A model generated the notes under the pieces. That model had not been told where the DNA came from and did not search any database. It was given only the letters and a program-made list of their open reading frames with translations. Made by a program: the position numbers and the translations under genes. 64,000 nt of DNA. It comes from Hanleya hanleyi (Eukaryota > Mollusca > Polyplacophora > Lepidopleurida > Hanleyidae). The stretch lies in the NCBI GenBank assembly GCA_036873755.1, contig JAVTVY010020273.1, positions 1-64,000 of the forward strand, given 5' to 3'. How positions within the stretch are numbered: the stretch's first letter is position 1; every line of letters begins with the position of its first letter. This document shows, one piece after another, positions 52,526-60,245 of this stretch.

Positions 52526-52531
52526 TTCGTC
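52526..52531. repeat. Target-site duplication TTCGTC (left)
   Basis: Identical to 60,240-60,245. The empty relative at 36,327-36,332 has one copy (TTCATC in the matching orientation). Confidence 0.85.
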
Positions 52532-52864
52532 AGTAGTAGTGTCTACGGAAAAAAGGTAACCTTTTGCCGGGGGAGGTAACTCTTGCATCCGACAGGTGGC
52601 GTTGTAGTGGCGGTTATAGATTGCATCAGCATTGGCTGTGTGCCAAGATTTGACCACTATAGGTCCGTTAACCTTTGACCTTGTATTCCTCCGCGGTGAT
52701 GCGGTCATGTCTGTCGGTGATGCGGTCGCGGAAAAAAGCTTCCGCGGAGAAAAAGTAGTCCCCAAAATTCAAATACGCTGCATGGTCCGATTGGGTCGAG
52801 TGAGGTATCAATGTGAAGCATTCGTGAAGGGGCATCCGATGGGCTGGGTGTGGGGTTGAAATAG

Positions 52865-53990
52865 CGTCATTCTGTGCATGCGCGGTGGACCAAGGGAATG
52901 GAAATAGACGTTTTGGGGTCTCGGGGAGCCACTAATGGTCCAATTGGGTCATATGAGGTATCAATGTGAAGCCTATGTGAGGGGGCATCCGACGGATGGG
53001 TGTGGGGTTGGAATATCGGCATTCTGCGCATGCGCAGTAGACCAAGGGTATGAAAATAGACGTTTTGGGGTCTAGGGGAGCCACTATTGGTCCGATTGGG
53101 TCATATGAGGTATCAATGTGAAGCCTATGTGAGGGGCCTCCGACGGGTGGGTGTGGGGTTGGAATATCGTCAATCTGCGCATGCGCGGTAGACCAAGGGT
53201 ATGGAATAGACGTTTTGGGATCTAGGGGAGCCCCTAATGGGCCGATGGAGTCGAGTGAGGTATCACTGTGAAGCCTATGTGAGAGGGCATCCGCCTGGAC
53301 TAGTATCTCGGCCGTTGTCAACATTCTGCGCATGCGCAAACAGGGAATTGTGGGAAAAAGGTATGGAAATAGACGTTTTGGGGTCTGAATGGGCCACTTG
53401 TGGTCCTATGGAGTCGTATGGGGTATCCATGTGAAGCGTATGTAAGGGGGCATCCGACGGGGTGGATGTGACGTGGAACTGACGTCATTCTGCGCATGCG
53501 CAGTAGATCAAGAGTATGGAAATAGACGTTTTGAGGTCGAGGTGGGCCACTATTGGTCCTATGGAGACGTATGAGGTATCAATGTGAATCATTCGTGAAG
53601 GAGCATCTGACTGGGTGGATCTGGGGTAGGAATATCGTCATTCTGCGCATGCGCGGTGGACCAAGTGTATGGAAGCAGACGTTTTCGGGTCTGGGTGGTC
53701 CACTAGTGGTCCTATGGAGTCGAGTGAGGTATCAATGTGAAGCCTATGTGAGGGGGCATCTGCCTGGACTAGTGTGTCGTCCGTGTTCAACATTCTGCGC
53801 ATGCGCAGACAGGGAATTGTGGGTAAAGTGCATTGCAGTGAACGTTTTAGGACATAGGGGATCCCCTAATGGGCCGATGGAGCCGTATGAGGTATCAATG
53901 TGAAGCCTATGTGAGGGGGCATCCGCCTGAACTAGTGTCTCGGCCGTTGTCTACATTCTGCGCATGCGCCAACAGGGAATTGTGAGCAAC
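52865..53990. repeat. Left-arm tandem array of TGCGCATGCGCA-bearing units
   Basis: Seven GCGCATGCGC cores begin (as TGCGC) at 53,025, 53,176, 53,327, 53,491, 53,644, 53,796 and 53,959, with a degenerate one near 52,874. Spacing is 151-153 or 163-164 bp. Between them, units share 'GACGTTTTGGGGTCT', 'TCCTATGGAGTCGTATG'-like and 'GAGGTATCAATGTGAAGCC' blocks. TGCGCATGCGCA fits the consensus of the animal transcription factor NRF1. The array lies downstream of both genes of the arm, near the element end. Open frames here are by-products of the repeat. Confidence 0.85.
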
Positions 53991-54386
53991 GTCCGCCAAC
54001 GCCAAGCTCAACGCTTCAACGCCCTGGTGAATTAGCCCAAAAGCTCTGATTTTCACCTAGCATAACGCCTTGACGCCATGATATAGACAGATGAGAGAAG
54101 AACAACAACAACAAGGATGAGAGAACAACAACAACAACAACGAGTTTTTTTCATATAGTTTATATTCCCCTCCATCATAACATACTCACGCTGGGAGTGC
54201 CGCGTTGGGTATGTTTACAATTCAAGAATACTCTTGTCCGATCAGAGACCGCCATTTGCTCCGGCCATATTCGTTCTTGCCCGTCAGATGTATTCTCGGC
54301 TGCACTTGTCCAATCAGAAGCCGTCCTTAAGAAAGTCCCATCTTCGGCCCTGTTCGCTCTCATCCGTTTGTTCTAATCGTCGTCGG
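53990..54386. other. 3' region of left-arm genes
   Basis: Holds an AACGCC-rich patch (53,988-54,080), an (ACAAC)n run and, on the minus strand, an AATATAAA-like stretch where the right arm has a clean AATAAA. This is the likely 3' end of the left-arm transcript. Confidence 0.45.
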
Positions 54387-54944
54387 TCAAGCCTGGATAT
54401 TCGTCGGCAGCATATCCTGAAACAGTTGTTTGCGCATTCTAATCGCATTTTCCAGGGCCTCGGTGGGTGGTAACCCCATAGCCTCTTCCAAGTGACGCTT
54501 GGTCTTCATGATGGACCTGTGCGTGGGGTCGCCTTTCATTTCAAGCGGTAGTAAGGTATACTGTTCATAGATCGCCATGGCTGTTTTCCTGATGCGGGGC
54601 CGCATTTCGGTGTACGCCTGTTGTAAGTTATCCTGTCCCGCGTCCTCGATCGCTTCAGGGTGAGTATTGATAGCTGCTGTCACAATACGATCCCAGAAGG
54701 TAGGTTCTGCCTCACTTTCCGGGGATGTAGGCTGACTATCTGAGGTCAAGCTCTCCATATCAGTAGATAGACTGTCAACAATCCTGGATTCGGTATCAGT
54801 CGATACACTCTCATCGATCTCTGTATCAGCATCCGATTCAACGGACTCCTCGGCGTCTTCAATCCCATGTATATTTTTCTGGTGTCGCATCATATCGTAA
54901 TGTCTGGTGAACGTGCGTTCACACTCAGAACAAGTATAAGCCAT
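54387..54944 (-). CDS. C2H2 zinc-finger protein with acidic linker (left arm)
   Basis: A 185-residue protein from the ATG at 54,944, chosen because the right-arm copy starts at the same MAYTCSECERTF; an upstream ATG adds 14 residues without counterpart. One C2H2 finger is clear: C5, C8, H21, H26 (C-x2-C-x12-H-x4-H). Residues ~30-85 are rich in Asp, Glu and Ser. The C-terminal ~100 residues look helical and contain RPRIRKTAMAIYEQY, GDPTHRSIM and AIRMRKQLFQDML. That order also occurs at the C-terminus of the neighbouring ATPase, suggesting a shared domain. A one-base deletion relative to the right arm alters the last few residues. The gene lies 149 bp downstream of the ATPase gene, same strand. 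Function unknown; a DNA-binding partner of the ATPase is a guess. Confidence 0.7.
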   Translation of the reverse strand: MAYTCSECERTFTRHYDMMRHQKNIHGIEDAEESVESDADTEIDESVSTDTESRIVDSLSTDMESLTSDSQPTSPESEAEPTFWDRIVTAAINTHPEAIEDAGQDNLQQAYTEMRPRIRKTAMAIYEQYTLLPLEMKGDPTHRSIMKTKRHLEEAMGLPPTEALENAIRMRKQLFQDMLPTNIQA

Positions 54945-54949
54945 GTTGA

Positions 54950-55093
54950 CGGTTGAACGTCGACTGTGCGTTTTTTGGGAATACACTCGCTTTCATAGAC
55001 AGTAACGCCCGCCAACGCCCACTGTTACGCCTTAACGCCCTATATGTACGCCTTAACGCTCGTCTCAACGCTTTAACACACTTTCTTAACGCT
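54950..55093. repeat. AACGC-rich spacer between the two left-arm genes
   Basis: Many short repeats of the type CGCCTTAACGC and CAACGCTTTAACG between the two genes, starting within the last ATPase codons. Similar patches flank the right-arm genes (58,075-58,170; 59,050-59,215) and the centre. Confidence 0.7.
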
Positions 55094-56329
55094 TTAACGT
55101 CGTTTAATGATGCGTTCAAACAAATGTTGCTTTTGTGCTATTGCTCTGACATACGCCGCTTTCCAGTTCATGCCCGAGATTTTCAACATCGACGCTGTTC
55201 TTTCGATTTCCATATGGACTGGATCCTTGTCCAACAATTTCATATGGGTCACGAGGTCGACATACTGCTGACGTAAAGCCCGTCGTAGTCTGGGTGCCAG
55301 TCTGTTATGGACTAAAATTGCGGTTTCTTTTTTCGAATATCCTTTGTGTTGAAACTTGTTTTCTGTGGCCCTCAACGTCTCGCCCATCTCGGCGTCCATA
55401 CTTTCTTTGAACAAATCCTTCCATAGCCTCGAGTTCACATTATGTTCATTCCCTTGTACGGGTACGGGTTGGGCCTTCACGGTTGGGTGATATTCCGGGA
55501 CTGATGGTATGAAGCGGACGCGCTGTATGGGGGTGAGTTGCTGCTGCTGCTCTGCCAGGAGTGGACTCGGCGGATGGTGTAGGGGTATATGACGTTGCGG
55601 TGATTCCTTGCCGGGTAACAGGTGGGTCGTCAGCCGACGATCTTCGGGGATATGGGCTTTTAAATTTACGAACAGGTAGCCGTACGGACGACTTGTCGCC
55701 CCTTGAAACGCCTGCATGAAATGGTCGATGTTCTGAGGATAAATTCGACTACCAAACACACGGATTTGTGCTCTGTCAATGGGATAGGAGAACAACACAA
55801 AGTATTGGCAGTTCAAGGCAATATCTATGGACGCCTTCCCTTGAGGAAAGAGATTCTGGGTCAAATAGATGACGGACAGATTCCGATGATGGGATCCTTT
55901 AGTAAACAAGTCGGCGACGTGTGAATTGTCCTTGGCCGCACTCATCAGATCATCTAGCACTACCACGTTGGTCTGCTCGGGGTCAAAGTAATACGGTTCG
56001 TTTATGTCGTGTGTAATCCCTGGGACGAAGCTCACATTCTGTAACCTTGTAGTTTCGTAGGCGGGCTGCCATTGGCTATAACACCAAACAACACGTGTCG
56101 GAGCTGGGGTTGCCACACCTGCCTCTAAGAACTTCATCACCCAGGACGTCTTTCCACATGCCGTAGGGTCGCTCACCGTCATCGTATAGGGATGCTCTAC
56201 TGCTCTTGTTGGACCTATAGGGGGACTCAGCTGTGTCTCTTGGTTGTGTTTGCGTTGAATGTGCCTGAGCATACTATCGCGACGAGAGAAGGTTCTCTGA
56301 CAGAACGTACACGTACACGACATGTTCAT
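55094..56329 (-). CDS. C2H2-P-loop packaging-type ATPase (left arm, full length)
   Basis: A 411-residue open frame. A C2H2 finger sits at C7, C10, H23, H28. The P-loop region follows: residues 54-61 read DPTACGKT, so the first glycine of the Walker A pattern GxxxxGKT is Asp. The right arm has GPTACGKT. Walker B is NVVVLDD at 121-127, then KGSHHRNLSVIYLTQNLF and a PYGYLFVNLK strand. This resembles the A32/FtsK-HerA-type ATPases of Polintons, polinton-like viruses and poxviruses, which package DNA into capsids. A basic helical C-terminus (~305-411) has APRLRRAL, DKDPVHMEIE and AIAQKQHLFERI. The start at 56,329 matches the right arm's ATG. With D54 the enzyme may be inactive. Confidence 0.75.
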   Translation of the reverse strand: MNMSCTCTFCQRTFSRRDSMLRHIQRKHNQETQLSPPIGPTRAVEHPYTMTVSDPTACGKTSWVMKFLEAGVATPAPTRVVWCYSQWQPAYETTRLQNVSFVPGITHDINEPYYFDPEQTNVVVLDDLMSAAKDNSHVADLFTKGSHHRNLSVIYLTQNLFPQGKASIDIALNCQYFVLFSYPIDRAQIRVFGSRIYPQNIDHFMQAFQGATSRPYGYLFVNLKAHIPEDRRLTTHLLPGKESPQRHIPLHHPPSPLLAEQQQQLTPIQRVRFIPSVPEYHPTVKAQPVPVQGNEHNVNSRLWKDLFKESMDAEMGETLRATENKFQHKGYSKKETAILVHNRLAPRLRRALRQQYVDLVTHMKLLDKDPVHMEIERTASMLKISGMNWKAAYVRAIAQKQHLFERIIKRR

Positions 56330-56896
56330 CAGTCGACCAATACATATGGACTGATGATGGACACAACTTCACCAACACCACCGCCACATACCACCACCAC
56401 CACCACCAACGCCACCACCAACGCCACCACCGGGCGTTGACAGGCGTCAACGCCCGGTGGTGGTGGTAGCCCCGTGTGGCAGAGCTCTTGGATCGGAGCT
56501 CTCGGAGCTCAAACCTTGTGGAGCTCAGAGCTCGCAAATGGCGTCATCGCAGGCATGCGCGTGTACCTGTGCTGCACCCGCACCATGGTGTACCCTATTC
56601 CCTACGGGCTATAGGGTACAGGGTGCAGCACAGGTACACGCGCATGCCTGCGATGACGCCATTTCCGAGCTCTGAGCTCCACAAGCTTTGAGCTCCAAGA
56701 GCTCCGATCCAAGACCTCTGCCACACGGGGGATACCACCACCCCCGTCAACGCCCGGTGGTGGCGTTGGTGGTGGTGTTGGTGGTGTGTGGCGGTGGTCT
56801 TGGTGGAGTTGGTGGTGGTGTGTGTGGTGGTGGTAGAGTCTGTAAATATAGGAATGAACATGTGTCCATCATCAGTCCATATGTATTGGTCGACTG
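56330..56896. repeat. Central palindrome / divergent promoter region
   Basis: The fold point of the element. Around ~56,605 GTACCCTA and TAGGGTAC face each other across a short loop, flanked by inverted 'GTGCTGCACCC', 'CAGGTACACGCGCATGCCTG' and 'CGATGACGCCATTT' arms. Outward lie clusters of GAGCTC (56,482, 56,496, 56,505, 56,521, 56,528 on the left; 56,667, 56,674, 56,690, 56,699 on the right), then (GGTGGT)n/(ACCACC)n tracts with GGCGTTG. The two ATPase genes start on either side and read outward, so this must hold any promoters. A hairpin of this size could also be a replication terminus. Confidence 0.75.
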
Positions 56897-58085
56897 ATGA
56901 ACATGTCGTGTACGTGTACGTTCTGTCAAGGACCTTCTCTCGTCGCGATAGTATGCTCAGGCACATTCAACGCAAACACAACCAAGAGACACAGCCGAGT
57001 CCCGCTATAGGTCCAACAAGAGCAGTAGAGCATCCCTATACGATGACGGTGAGCGGCCCTACGGCATGTGGAAAGACGTCCTGGGCTATGAAGTTCTTAG
57101 AGGCAGGTGTGGCAACCCCAGCTCCGACACGTGTTGTTTGGTGTTATAGCCAATGGCAGCCCGCCTACGAAACTACAAGGTTACAGAATGTGAGCTTCGT
57201 CCCAGGGATTCCCCACGACATAAACGAACCGTATTACTTTGACCCCGAGCAGACCAACGTGGTAGTGCTAGATGATCTGATGAGTGCGGCCAAGGACAAT
57301 TCACACGTCGCCGACTTGCTTACTAAAGGATCCCATCATCGGAATCTGTCCGTCATCTATTTGACCCAGAATCTCTTTCTTCAAGGGAAGGCGTCCAGAG
57401 ATATTGCCTTGAACTGCCAATACTTTGTGTTGTTCTCCAATCCCATTGACAGAGCACAAATCCGTGTGTTTGGTAGTCGAATTTATCCTCAGAACATTGA
57501 CCATTTTATGCAGGCGTTTCAAGAAGCGACAATTCGTCCGTACGGCTACCTGTTCGTAGATTTAAAAGCCCATACCCCCGAAGATCGTCGGCTGACGACC
57601 CACCTGTTACCCGGTGAGGAATCACCACAACGGCCTATACCCCTACGCCATCCGCCGAGTGCACTCCTGGCAAAGCAGCAGCAGAAGCCCACCCCCATAC
57701 AGCGGGCCCGCTTCATACCATCAGTCCTGGAATATCACCCAACCGTGAAGGCCCAGCAACCTTCGCCCTGAAAATGGTATAATGTGAACTTTCAGAGCAT
57801 AATTTGTTCAAAGTATGGTTGCCGGGCTCAGAGCGCGTGTGAATGAGATTTCAACACAAAGATATTCCGAAAAGCCGCTGAGCCACAGCCCATAACAGAT
57901 CGGCACCAGACTACGGCAGGCTGCGTCGCGTATGTCGTCAGTGACTATATGGCTTATTGAGACAGGGCCAGTCCATATGAAATCGAGACTAGCATCGATG
58001 CGAAATGCGGGCATAACTGGAAGCGGCATATGTCAAATCTGCTTCACTTCTTTGGCTGACTGAGCCTTCGTCGGCGACGTTAACG
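56897..58085 (+). pseudogene. Packaging-type ATPase, right-arm copy (broken)
   Basis: Inverted copy of the left-arm ATPase gene. The equivalent ATG is at 56,897, but one base is missing inside the C2H2 finger (after the second Cys codon), which shifts the frame. A long frame open from 56,788 to 57,771 exists only because an unrelated upstream frame (MAVVLVELVV...) happens to join. The ATPase core is well kept and has an intact Walker A, GPTACGKTS, with NVVVLDD and SVIYLTQNLF. It stops at 57,771, about where the left protein goes on for ~110 residues. The remaining sequence to ~58,085 is still recognisably homologous DNA but full of small indels and substitutions. Confidence 0.75.
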
Positions 58086-58213
58086 TTAAAAGTGTGTTAA
58101 GCATTGGCTGGCGCCATTCAAAACGTACGCCTGAGCGTTAAACGTAACGGCGTTGGCGCTGTCTATGGCACAGTGTATTCCAAAAAACTTGCAGTCGACG
58201 TTCAACCGTCAAC

Positions 58214-58786
58214 ATGGCTTATACTTGTTCTGAGTGTGAACGCACGTTCACCAGACATTACGATATGATGCGACACCAAAAAAATATACATGGGATTGAA
58301 GACGCCGAGGAGTCCGTTGAATCGGATGCTGATACAGAGATCGATGAGAGTGTATCGGCTGATACCGAATCCAAGATTGTTGACAGTCTATCTACTGATA
58401 TGGAGAGCTTGACCTCAGATAGTCAGCCTACATCCCAGGAAAGTGAGGCAGAACCTACCTTCTGGGATCGTATTGTGACTGCAGCTATCAATACTCACGC
58501 TGAAGCGATCGAGGACGCGGGACAGGATAACTTACAACAGGCGTACACCGAAATGCGGCCCCGCATCAGGAAAACAGCCATGGCGATCTATGAAACGTAT
58601 ACCTTACTACCGCTTGAAATGAAAGGCGACCCCACGCACAGGTCCATCATGAAGACCAAGCTTCACTTGGAAGAGGCTATGGGGTTACCACCCACCGAGG
58701 CCCTGTAAAATGCGATTAGAATGCGCAAACAACTGTTTCGGGATATGCTGCCCGACGAATATCCAGGCCTGACCGACGACGATTAG
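58214..58786 (+). pseudogene. C2H2 zinc-finger protein, right-arm copy (premature stop)
   Basis: Inverted copy of the left-arm gene, starting at the same MAYTCSECERTF. Open for 164 codons to a TAA at 58,706-58,708, where the left arm has a glutamate codon. Matching sequence continues to a TAG at 58,784-58,786. The finger (C5, C8, H21, H26), acidic stretch and RPRIRKTAMAIYETY are kept. Only a few residues differ from the left copy, in contrast to the wrecked C-terminus of the neighbouring ATPase. The truncated protein could still be made and would lack the last ~26 residues. Confidence 0.75.
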
Positions 58787-58984
58787 AACAAACGGATGAG
58801 AGCGAACAGGGCCGAAGATGGGACTTTCTTAAGGACGGCTTCTGATTGGACAAGTGCAGCCGAGAATACATCTGACGGGCAAGAACGAATATGGCCGGAC
58901 CAAATGTTTGGACAAGAGTATTCTTGAATTGTAAACATACCCAACGCGGCTCCCCCAGCGTGAGTATGTTATGATGGAGGGGAA

Positions 58985-58990
58985 AATAAA
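58985..58990 (+). terminator. Candidate poly(A) signal AATAAA
   Basis: AATAAA about 200 bp after the right-arm C2H2 gene. The inverted left-arm counterpart (near 54,167) reads AATATA. It lies just before a (GTT)n tract. Confidence 0.5.
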
Positions 58991-59229
58991 CTATATGAAA
59001 AAAACTCGTTGTTGTTGTTGTTCTCTCATCCTTGTTGTTGTTGTTCTTCTCTCATCTGTCTATATCATGGCGTCAAGGCGTTATGCTAGGGCGTTAAGGC
59101 GGACGTTGACGAGAGTCACTGCATTTCCAATGAATTAGTGACAATTCCATGAAAATCAGAGCTTTTGGGCTAATTCACCAGGGCGTTGAAGCGTTGAGCT
59201 TGGCGTTGGCGACCGTTGCTCACAATTCC

Positions 59230-60000
59230 CTGTCTGCGCATGCGCAGAATGTAGACAACGGCCGAGATACTAGTCCAGGCGGATGCCCCCTCACATAGGC
59301 TTCACACTGATACCTCATACGGCTCCATCGGCCCATTAGGGGCTCCCCAATATCCTAAAACGTTCTCTGCAATGCACTTTTCCCACAATTCCCTGTCTGC
59401 GCATGCGCAGAATGTTGAACACGGACGACACACTAGTCCAGGCAGATGCCCCCTCACATAGGCTTCACATTGATACCTCACTCGACTCCATAGGACCACT
59501 AGTGGCCCACCCCGATCCCAAAACGTCTATTTCCATACCCTTGGTCCACCGCGCATGCGCAGAATGACGAAATTTCTACCCCTCATCCACCCTCATTGAT
59601 ACCTCACACGACTCCATAGGACCAATAGTGGCCCACCTCGACCTCAAAACGTCTATTTCCATACACTTGGTCTACTGCGCATGCGCAGAATGACGTCAGT
59701 TCCACGTCACACCCACCCCGTCGGATGCCCCATCACATAGGCTTCACATGGATACCGCATACGACTCCATAGGACCACAAGTGGCCCATTCAGACCCCAA
59801 AACGTCTATTTCCATACCCTTTTCCCACAATTCCCTGTTTGCGCATGCGCAGAATGTTGTCAACGGCCGAGATACTAGTCCAGGCGGATGCCCTCTCACA
59901 TAGGCTTCACAGTGATACCTCACTCGACTCCATCGGCCCATTAGGAGCTCCCCTAGATCCCAAAACGTCTATTCCATACCCTTGGTCTACCGCGCATGCT
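59230..60000. repeat. Right-arm tandem array of TGCGCATGCGCA-bearing units
   Basis: Inverted, shorter counterpart of the left array. GCGCATGCGC-bearing 12-mers begin at 59,235, 59,398, 59,550, 59,676 and 59,840, with a truncated CGCGCATGC at 59,991. The left arm has seven full sites, so units have been lost or gained since the arms separated. Confidence 0.85.
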
Positions 60001-60239
60001 TCACATTGATACCTCACTCGACCCAATCGGACCATGCAGCGTATTTGAATTTTGGGGACTACTTTTTCCCCGCGGAAGCTTTTTTCGGCGACCGTATCAC
60101 TGCCAGACATGACCGCATCACCGCGGAGGAATACAAGGTCAAAGGTTAACGGGCCTATAGTGATCAAAACTTGGCACACAGCCAATGCTGATGCAATCTA
60201 TAACCGCCACTACACCTTTTTTCCGTAGACACTACTACT

Positions 60240-60245
60240 TTCGTC
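60240..60245. repeat. Target-site duplication TTCGTC (right)
   Basis: Directly follows the ACTACTACT terminus and matches the left copy. Confidence 0.85.

Follow-up and report, generated by a model that had tools for sequence, protein, structure and literature searches.

Structure and borders of the palindrome

How could an element move that has Polinton-type ends and two genes repeated in mirror image, and has no Polinton replication, integration or capsid genes? The question is raised by a palindrome in the window, by which we mean the whole 64,000-nt stretch analysed from the polyplacophoran Hanleya hanleyi (contig JAVTVY010020273.1). The element spans 52,532-60,239; its left end reads AGTAGTAGTGTCTACGGAAAAAAGG from 52,532, and the reverse complement of this sequence ends at 60,239. 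Comparison of elements and an empty-site search placed a 6-bp target-site duplication, TTCGTC, at 52,526-52,531 and again at 60,240-60,245. The joined flanks (206 nt, with one TTCGTC) were contiguous, at 91-94% identity, in all 40 other places scored from 3,183 first-look candidates in the genome, which places the insertion within a dispersed repeat and fixes both borders exactly. The inverted Polinton-type ends and flanking repeats described in an earlier note on this DNA are thus confirmed, as is the central hairpin, which is an inverted repeat of 56,470-56,579 and 56,621-56,730 at 96%. This hub (56,470-56,730) has 110-nt arms flanking a 41-nt asymmetric core (56,580-56,620), can form a bulged stem that encloses a further hairpin, and is also present in three other loci (L010, L017 and L019). 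The two orientations of the hub core were considered as a parvovirus-like flip-flop, and this was dismissed as uninformative because a palindrome has no fixed orientation.

The two arms are approximately 96% alike; their inverted blocks, 95-98% complementary, measure 827, 573, 443, 406 and 222 nt. The right tip (60,215-60,239, reverse strand) is identical over 25 nt to the left tip (52,532-52,556, forward strand), which lies within the outermost 30 nt or so that vary between copies. The left subterminal region (52,557-54,055, forward strand) holds degenerate repeats of about 150-163 nt and seven of the twelve TGCGCATGCGCA-like sites; its mirror in the right arm (59,150-60,214, reverse strand) holds the other five. 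The arms are unequal, since 361 nt and 46 nt of the left arm are absent from the right. In addition, a right-arm segment with many small gaps (about 57,770-58,180, forward strand) diverges from every other class A copy in the comparison, and in most 100-nt bins it is only about 66-89% like those copies or the left arm. This segment is at odds with equal arms. In its appearance it resembles poor sequence.

Two genes, one of them a packaging-type ATPase

The left arm carries an uninterrupted 411-aa frame (55,094-56,329, reverse strand) with a C2H2 finger at about residues 1-28, an ATPase domain of the A32/adenovirus-IVa2-like packaging type at about 45-240, and a helical C-terminal domain at 295-411. 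Its counterpart in the right arm (56,929-57,771, forward strand) stops early, because the sequence from about 57,770 diverges from the left arm and from the other class A copies. The second gene, ORF2, encodes in the left arm (54,387-54,944, reverse strand) a C2H2 finger, an acidic linker and a C-terminal segment weakly like the C-terminus of the ATPase; the right-arm version (58,214-58,708, forward strand) has 164 aa and a shortened C-terminus. A homolog search with ORF2 found none. The mirror-image gene sets of the earlier note therefore stand in that both genes occur in each arm, but not as an exact mirror, given the unequal arms and the early stop in the right ATPase frame.

Queries for Polinton PolB (four queries), integrase, capsid and protease had no match in the element at E 1e-3, and only the ATPase query matched; the integrase of L022, a Polinton-type element of the same genome, likewise had no match within it. 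The absence of PolB, integrase and capsid genes is thereby upheld, and as to gene content the earlier description is correct: a packaging ATPase, a finger protein and hardly anything else. Using Foldseek, the ATPase matched packaging ATPases of the A32 type, of adenovirus (IVa2), of adintoviruses and of virophages. Its homologs bear PF04665 and PF02456, a Pfam search with the window protein itself gave no match to either, and it is 41% identical to the ATPase of L022. By its homologs' domains, this identity and the structural matches, the protein belongs with the A32/IVa2-type ATPases. No relative of it was found in phage records or IMG/VR viral contigs, and GTDB contigs yielded one, on a groundwater contig (L030) with PolB and ATPase. 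In a tree of ATPase matches the window protein did not group with that of L022. A separate C2H2-ATPase clade was considered and dropped, since of the 71 rows in the window-ATPase clade just 30 show the C2H2 fusion, which occurs elsewhere in the tree too (30 of 37 rows in another clade, and all five rows adjoining L022) and does not set satellites apart there.

Ends shared with Polintons of the same genome

A 17-nt tip pattern recurs exactly at 346 places in the genome, its reversed control at 4, and among the first 100 places listed the neighbours were oriented inward in 25 cases, outward in 2 and on the same strand in 4. Both tips could be read at 17 loci, of which 14 have a perfect 6-bp duplication, two match at five of six positions and one (C14887) fails; the chance of a match of at least 5/6 is 0.6%. 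The tips are on average 91% identical within a copy and 60% between copies, and adjoin a nearly invariant stretch. The outermost 30 nt or so therefore vary between copies and match within one.

Among the Polintons of the genome, C10078 has a tip identical to that of the window element over the first 18 nt. This Polinton is 19,295 bp long, is flanked by the duplication GGTCGA, and carries an integrase with chromodomain, an ATPase, capsid proteins, a protease and PolB homology, the PolB region being split over several frames; only the tip is shared with the window element. By subterminal sequence the nearest Polinton is L022, the terminal repeat of which is 85.8% identical over 1,416 columns to the left subterminal region. 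Protease, capsid, ATPase and integrase genes are found in L022/L029, and no PolB was found in L022. Both C10078 and L022/L029 are candidate helpers. Capsid-protein matches among the loci searched were restricted to L021, L022, L026, L027 and C10078, and 84 of 1,723 candidates, when scored, gave 164 matches to PolB of the PF03175 type in the genome. The end type is common to the palindromes, their single-gene-set relatives, a Polinton in which a PolB was looked for and not found, and C10078.

The element thus has the AGT-type inverted ends and 6-bp target duplication of a non-autonomous Polinton derivative, and the earlier proposal of such a relationship is supported. Like a virus satellite, it lacks capsid and replication genes of its own, and its cis signals are shared by a Polinton of this genome that may serve as helper.

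An abundant family, and the history of the arms

The 101 best-scored ATPase matches in the genome, a sample biased to good copies, were all near full length, and 75 of them had no internal stop. Listing the copies and their duplications showed both palindromic forms and a single-gene-set form with long terminal repeats. Palindromes with their own 6-bp duplications are found at the window, L009, L010 and L017; a fifth palindromic locus, L023, has its left part in another contig, and ten further contigs hold two ATPase matches head to head. The element is therefore one lineage of an abundant family and neither the lone oddity nor the chance inversion it might have seemed. A search of class A relatives for an integrase returned only a 21-aa match, located in the flank of L009. 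A short "integrase" stretch read by eye inside L012 was treated as a dispersed repeat because it is present also in the flank of L009, in L015 and in L028.

When the arms became alike was addressed by comparing copies. We expected arm identity within a copy to be clearly above that between copies, and this was not seen (93.8-98.7% within a copy; 91.2-98.2% when arms from different, independent class A loci were paired); site patterns were therefore used. Among five independent palindromes read base by base, picked for their window-like ends, 134 site-pairs were concerted, meaning that the arms of one copy agree against another copy, versus 6 that cross between arms. Each pair of palindromes gave 3-21 concerted sites, and 70-128 additional sites differing in one arm only. 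The single control was L010/L011, two assembled copies of apparently one insertion, which had no concerted sites and 10 shared arm-specific differences. The flanks of the two agree at 100% over 152 and 149 nt; they are composed of tandem repeat, which weakens a reading of the pair as alleles. From these counts, the arms appear to have been equalised, or made from one template, before or at integration. The earlier suggestion of a head-to-head dimer agrees with this in that a dimer would give identical arms at integration; the divergent segment in the right arm of the window does not fit.

A proposed Polinton-dependent satellite and the competing readings

We consider that the element is probably, with odds of roughly two in three, an integrated copy of a satellite that depends on Polintons and encodes a packaging-type ATPase itself. 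Several points weigh against it: no PolB was found in L022, the Polinton closest by subterminal sequence; C10078 has only its tip in common with the element, and its PolB region is broken up; C2H2 fusions occur in the ATPase tree beyond the clade of the window protein; ORF2 is without known relatives; the arm comparison covers five palindromes picked for their ends; and the right arm has its divergent segment. The strongest competitor is a variant of this explanation that concerns the form of the molecule, namely, in place of a 7.7-kb palindrome, a 3.8-kb monomer with one Polinton end and a closed hub hairpin, inserted as a head-to-head dimer after copying round the hairpin. It would account for arms equal at integration, for the foldable hub, and for L019, in which one full arm is followed by only about 275 nt beyond the hub. 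However, the truncated end of L019 showed no target-site duplication, the single-set relatives are bounded on both sides by Polinton ends and lack a full hub, and no resolvase-like gene is present in the element, so that we regard this form as unlikely.

Still less likely is a passive Polinton derivative, comparable to a large MITE, in which the ends alone give mobility and the two genes are roleless leftovers. The missing PolB, integrase and capsid homology is consistent with this, and so is the decay of copies once inserted, seen in a dN/dS of 0.75-0.88 for four within-lineage pairs of ATPases. Against it, six pairs between the palindromic and single-set lineages gave 0.31-0.35, all frames in both comparisons having been picked for being open, and the ATPase has thus evolved under constraint between lineages; the stop-free majority of the best-scored matches, biased as that sample is, points the same way.

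Long palindromes readily undergo gene conversion in other genomes, and such conversion between chromosomal arms after insertion might maintain their identity. The contrary control is one insertion only, flanked by tandem repeat, but it shares ten arm-specific differences and no concerted ones, and most of the differences between arms, which amount to 1.3-4.2% per locus, are confined to a single arm, which makes this reading improbable. The poor look of the right-arm segment and the ending of the L020, L023 and L025 contigs inside such elements might speak for misassembly or for an inverted duplication that happened once in the chromosome, but either is hardly credible given four palindromes with duplications of their own and a fifth locus, ten more head-to-head contigs, one hub common to four loci, and exact empty sites.

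Returning to the satellite, we propose that it is a linear mobile DNA of 6-8 kb that retains ends of the Polinton type and has two genes not taken from the Polinton replication, integration and capsid set, all of which it lacks. A Polinton in the same nucleus would provide the protein-primed PolB, initiating on the AGT-repeat tip, and the integrase that would insert the linear satellite DNA and make the 6-bp duplication. The C2H2-ATPase, perhaps directed to satellite DNA by its zinc finger, would replace the ATPase of the helper and load this DNA into helper capsids. The palindromic lineage would replicate as a molecule whose arms are equalised before insertion because a strand displaced during copying pairs with itself from the hub outward, after which the arms would be made identical by mismatch repair or by synthesis round the hairpin; tips may have been swapped with those of Polintons. 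Helper dependence, packaging and the fold-back replication form are what we infer. The sequences support the shared ends, the 6-bp duplications, tip mosaicism, a constrained ATPase, and arms that appear to have been equalised no later than integration; they also show that elements with this end type and with the genes absent here exist in the genome. A satellite that shares the ends of Polintons suggests a parasite of a parasite in a large animal genome.

More tentatively, one eukaryotic genome could hold three tiers: Polintons; satellites pirating them by means of a packaging motor that is theirs alone and is guided by its C2H2 finger; and a lineage of palindromes in which each molecule is self-templated, with both gene copies remade identical at each cycle. 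A satellite would switch helpers by taking over from another Polinton the outermost 30 nt or so, presumed to be the origin. We hold this fuller scheme to be possible and rather doubtful.

Relation to known systems and significance

Polintons/Mavericks (polintoviruses, adintoviruses) share with the element the AGT-type terminal inverted repeats, the 6-bp target duplication and an A32-type ATPase, one in this genome even having the same first 18 nt. Unlike them, the element is wholly palindromic, lacks PolB, integrase, protease and capsid homology, and has an ATPase with a C2H2 finger and helical C-domain that is 41% identical to that of L022. Protein-primed viruses such as adenovirus form palindromic defective genomes, with one end duplicated head to head round a central hub. 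The duplicated end, and hence an origin at both ends, is the same here; the difference is that the palindromes form a lineage of many copies, each arm of which has a gene under constraint. In PMC4642659, Tlr1 of Tetrahymena is a Polinton-like element without DNA polymerase that keeps integrase, ATPase and both capsid proteins, whereas the present element, likewise a relative without PolB, has only the ATPase and ORF2. Transpovirons and virophages, according to PMC3671162, are small, live at the expense of a larger DNA virus and have zinc-binding proteins; both traits recur here, the dependence by proposal, but no virophage capsid or helicase genes were seen in the element and its integration is of the Polinton type. 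Titles and abstract openings of open-licence PMC articles contained no palindromic or ATPase-only Polinton elements, which is weak evidence of absence.

Phage satellites that steal the packaging of their helpers are well known in bacteria. According to PMC6739421, PICIs redirect helper packaging with a satellite protein that acts with the small subunit of the helper terminase. The proposed logic is the same, in that a small element bears the signals of its helper and encodes a protein that would give packaging its specificity, although ours is eukaryotic, carries a second motor-type ATPase and would redirect packaging by proposal. If true, a satellite of an integrating DNA virus-transposon in an animal genome would extend the logic of bacterial phage satellites. 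The palindromic lineage would be a natural record of how protein-primed linear elements replicate, in which comparison of the arms dates each insertion. Tip mosaicism would offer a route to the 30 nt or so that a Polinton polymerase or integrase recognises, and could also reveal which helper served which satellite.

Structure and borders of the palindromic element

The palindrome at 52,532-60,239 of the window is 7,708 bp long and carries two genes per arm, a C2H2-ATPase (ORF1) and a second C2H2 frame (ORF2), and its inverted arms are about 96% identical within matching blocks. The earlier note had described a 6-bp TTCGTC on each side and had claimed that polymerase B (PolB), integrase and capsid genes are missing. 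Both claims are borne out by searches of the genome (52,793 contigs, 2.48 Gb) and of the element. Flanks joined via a single TTCGTC gave an uninterrupted match of 91-94% at all 40 scored places (from 3,183 first-look candidates), and therefore the element lies inside a dispersed repeat and has exact borders. Queries for PolB, integrase, capsid and protease found no match in the element, and a Polinton ATPase query matched both arms. The G+C content changes from about 38% outside to about 50% within. A segment of the right arm (window 57770-58180) differs from the other palindromic copies compared and shows many small gaps, in surroundings about 97% alike; this is perhaps uncorrected read sequence or a divergent patch.

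Relatives in the same genome

The genome search with terminus and ATPase that had been proposed earlier yielded many copies, palindromic and with a single gene set. Using the first 369 nt of the element as query, 40 places were scored from 4,995 candidates and 20 stretches were fetched. Class A elements, palindromes whose arms each carry both genes, are the window element, L009, L010 with L011, L017 and L023, the right arm of the last being cut by a contig end. L019 has one arm and about 275 nt beyond the hub, the central inverted repeat at 56,470-56,730; L020 and L025 run to contig ends. The same hub is present in the window, L010, L017 and L019, and the centres are altered in L009, L011 and L023. 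The flanks of L010, L011 and L020 agree at 100% over about 150 nt but consist of tandem repeats; we took the three as a single insertion, as alleles or duplicates; the repeat around this palindrome has a short period, with offsets of about 37 nt. Class B, in which long inverted repeats enclose a single gene set, comprises L012, L013, L014, L015/L016, L018, L024 and L028, and a LINE-type element with reverse transcriptase and endonuclease frames lies within one of them (L016:99-3348). Class C consists of Polinton-type elements, L021 with L022 and L026 with L027, each pair having a common flank.

Over ORF2 and the ATPase, the palindromic and single-set classes are about 90% identical, and identity within classes is mostly 96-98%, with the exceptions of L028 (about 92%) and the arms winR (window right arm) and L009L. 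In a search with the ATPase, the best 101 matches scored from 41,692 candidates were all near full length and lay on 91 contigs; the 100 besides the window itself are 92-96% identical, and 75 of the 101 have no internal stop. Ten contigs have two of these best matches, always head to head, with a spacing of 452-846 bp.

Terminal sequences

The pattern AGTAGTAGKGTCWACGG has 346 exact occurrences in the genome versus 4 for the reversed control. The 6-bp duplication is perfect in 14 of the 17 loci with both tips read, matches at 5 of 6 positions in two, and fails in contig locus C14887, which has one additional AGT at one end; this count merges L011 with L010 and L021 with L022, and leaves out L014, L018, L019, L020, L023, L025, L026 and L027, where a tip is missing or unread. 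Between copies, the outermost ~30 nt are 60% identical over nt 6-30 (136 pairs), whereas the two ends of one copy average 91% (17 loci), the low values being C14887 (24%, from a 3-nt offset), L013 (76%) and the window (84%). Bases directly inside the tips are nearly invariant in the elements of classes A and B and in L022. Six further elements of 12.5-14.2 kb, considered for their ends only with gene content unread, show more combinations: in five, different tips precede a subterminal sequence like that of classes A and B, whereas the sixth, C9637, is similar to the Polinton C10078. We read this variation as probable exchange of tips between elements. Adenovirus uses jump-back initiation of protein-primed replication, and by analogy the repeated AGT would fit such a process. 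The subterminal repeats contain 12 TGCGCATGCGCA-like sites (window 53025-59851; 0.10 expected), which resemble the NRF1 site; none occurs elsewhere in the window, and none was found in the C10078 pieces.

Equality of the arms

Overall arm identity alone does not demonstrate equalisation before integration, and we applied a site-pattern test to ORF2 and the ATPase at five independent palindromic loci (10 pairs), with the odd window segment excluded. Both arms of one copy agreed against both arms of the other at 134 site-pairs (3-21 per pair; one site can count in several pairs), versus 6 that followed the arm across copies. The single control, L010 versus L011, gave 0 concerted and 10 arm-specific sites; as separate insertions these would be expected to show concerted differences. 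Arm differences number 54/1,745 in the window, 81/1,914 in L009, 62/2,214 in L010, 28/1,335 in L011, 29/2,189 in L017 and 52/2,172 in L023, and are mostly private to one arm. Taken together, these patterns, with their one control, argue for equal or nearly equal arms at insertion, with drift afterwards.

The ATPase and ORF2

The 411-aa ORF1 combines an ATPase core with a helical C-domain and, at its N-terminus, a C2H2 finger that scores under the Pfam cut-off. Its AlphaFold model has a mean pLDDT of 70, and Foldseek viral matches include A32-type packaging ATPases, adenovirus IVa2, an adintovirus FtsK-like protein and Sputnik V3, with query-length TM-scores of about 0.3-0.4; STIV2 B204 was a weak match in the PDB (E 5.2e-4). 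A protein search gave 575 proteins at E<=0.001 from 2,754 candidates, and many of the best 120 have PF04665 or PF02456; an N-terminal C2H2 is likewise found in many. A tree was built from 117 of 125 rows, the other 8 having no anchor motif. It places the window ATPase, with a same-genome relative, within a 71-row clade (support 99/90), apart from the L022 ATPase. Both the window row and the L022 row have long branches, and the placement of the two is unsure. These two ATPases are 41% identical over 199 columns. The finger is present in 30 of the 71 rows, in 30 of 37 of another clade and in 5 rows adjoining L022, which makes the fusion a widespread one in this set of ATPase matches. ORF2 also has a C2H2 finger and weakly resembles the ATPase C-terminus (E 5e-4, single comparison); a database search found no homolog.

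Considering uninterrupted frames only (five for the ATPase), ATPase dN/dS is 0.31-0.35 across six pairs between classes A and B (dS about 0.27), versus 0.75-0.88 across four within-class pairs. On these ratios the ATPase was under constraint and mattered during the period of element movement. For ORF2 the between-class values are 0.34-0.70, with no within-class control.

Candidate helper elements

L022 and L029 form one 12.25-kb element with the duplication CTTAAG. It has genes for an integrase, an ATPase lacking the C2H2 finger, a C5-like protease, a capsid protein of 434 aa and a further capsid-like protein. The 434-aa protein has 1,908 homologs, the named ones being 'F54H12.2-like', which we take to be the Polinton capsid family. 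The terminal repeat of the L022/L029 element matches that of the window element at 85.8% identity over 1,416 columns. L027 likewise shows capsid, protease, ATPase and integrase homology. No PolB was found in L022/L029, nor in the stretches of L021, L026 and L027 that were read. A short dispersed sequence (L009:9518-9580, L012:4953-5033, L015:4408-4470, L028:3804-3875) matches the integrase frame of L022 over its final 21-27 residues, and may have interrupted the gene there.

C10078 is a Polinton of 19,295 bp with the duplication GGTCGA, encoding an integrase with chromodomain, an ATPase, capsid proteins, a protease, and CARD and RING proteins; its PolB homology (E 3e-19) is spread across several frames. 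It has the first 18 nt in common with the window element, and no terminal match was found past them. The CARD and PC4-like protein (L053:607-1920; CARD E 1.1e-14) and the RING-finger frames (L051:463-1158, 2470-2859) are possible host-response modulators. PF03175-type PolB gave 164 matches in the genome from 84 scored of 1,723 candidates, and these ends were absent from the ~1.5-kb flanks of 20 fetched PolB loci, flanks too short to tell. A groundwater MAG contig (L030, JAHFML010000006.1, 7,071 bp) encodes a 1,224-aa PolB, an A32-like ATPase and a 304-aa protein resembling, by eye, a 266-aa Polinton protein; it is possibly a piece of a free adintovirus-like virus filed under a bacterium.

A proposed satellite of a Polinton helper

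A full Polinton has PolB, integrase and capsid; the window element lacks all three and is not one. Its ends and duplication fit a non-autonomous Polinton derivative. At the sequence level it also has the features of a virus satellite; the functional ones are presumed. The simplest account, judged from sequence, is that it would be a satellite of a Polinton helper, and we infer its helper dependence, packaging and replication form. The PolB and integrase of the helper would act on ends common to both. Once displaced, a single strand of the palindromic lineage would fold back over its whole length, regenerating the end and exposing differences between the arms to repair; a 3.8-kb monomer with a hairpin end would serve equally well as replication form. 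The satellite would retain its own ATPase because this favours satellite DNA, perhaps via the C2H2 finger.
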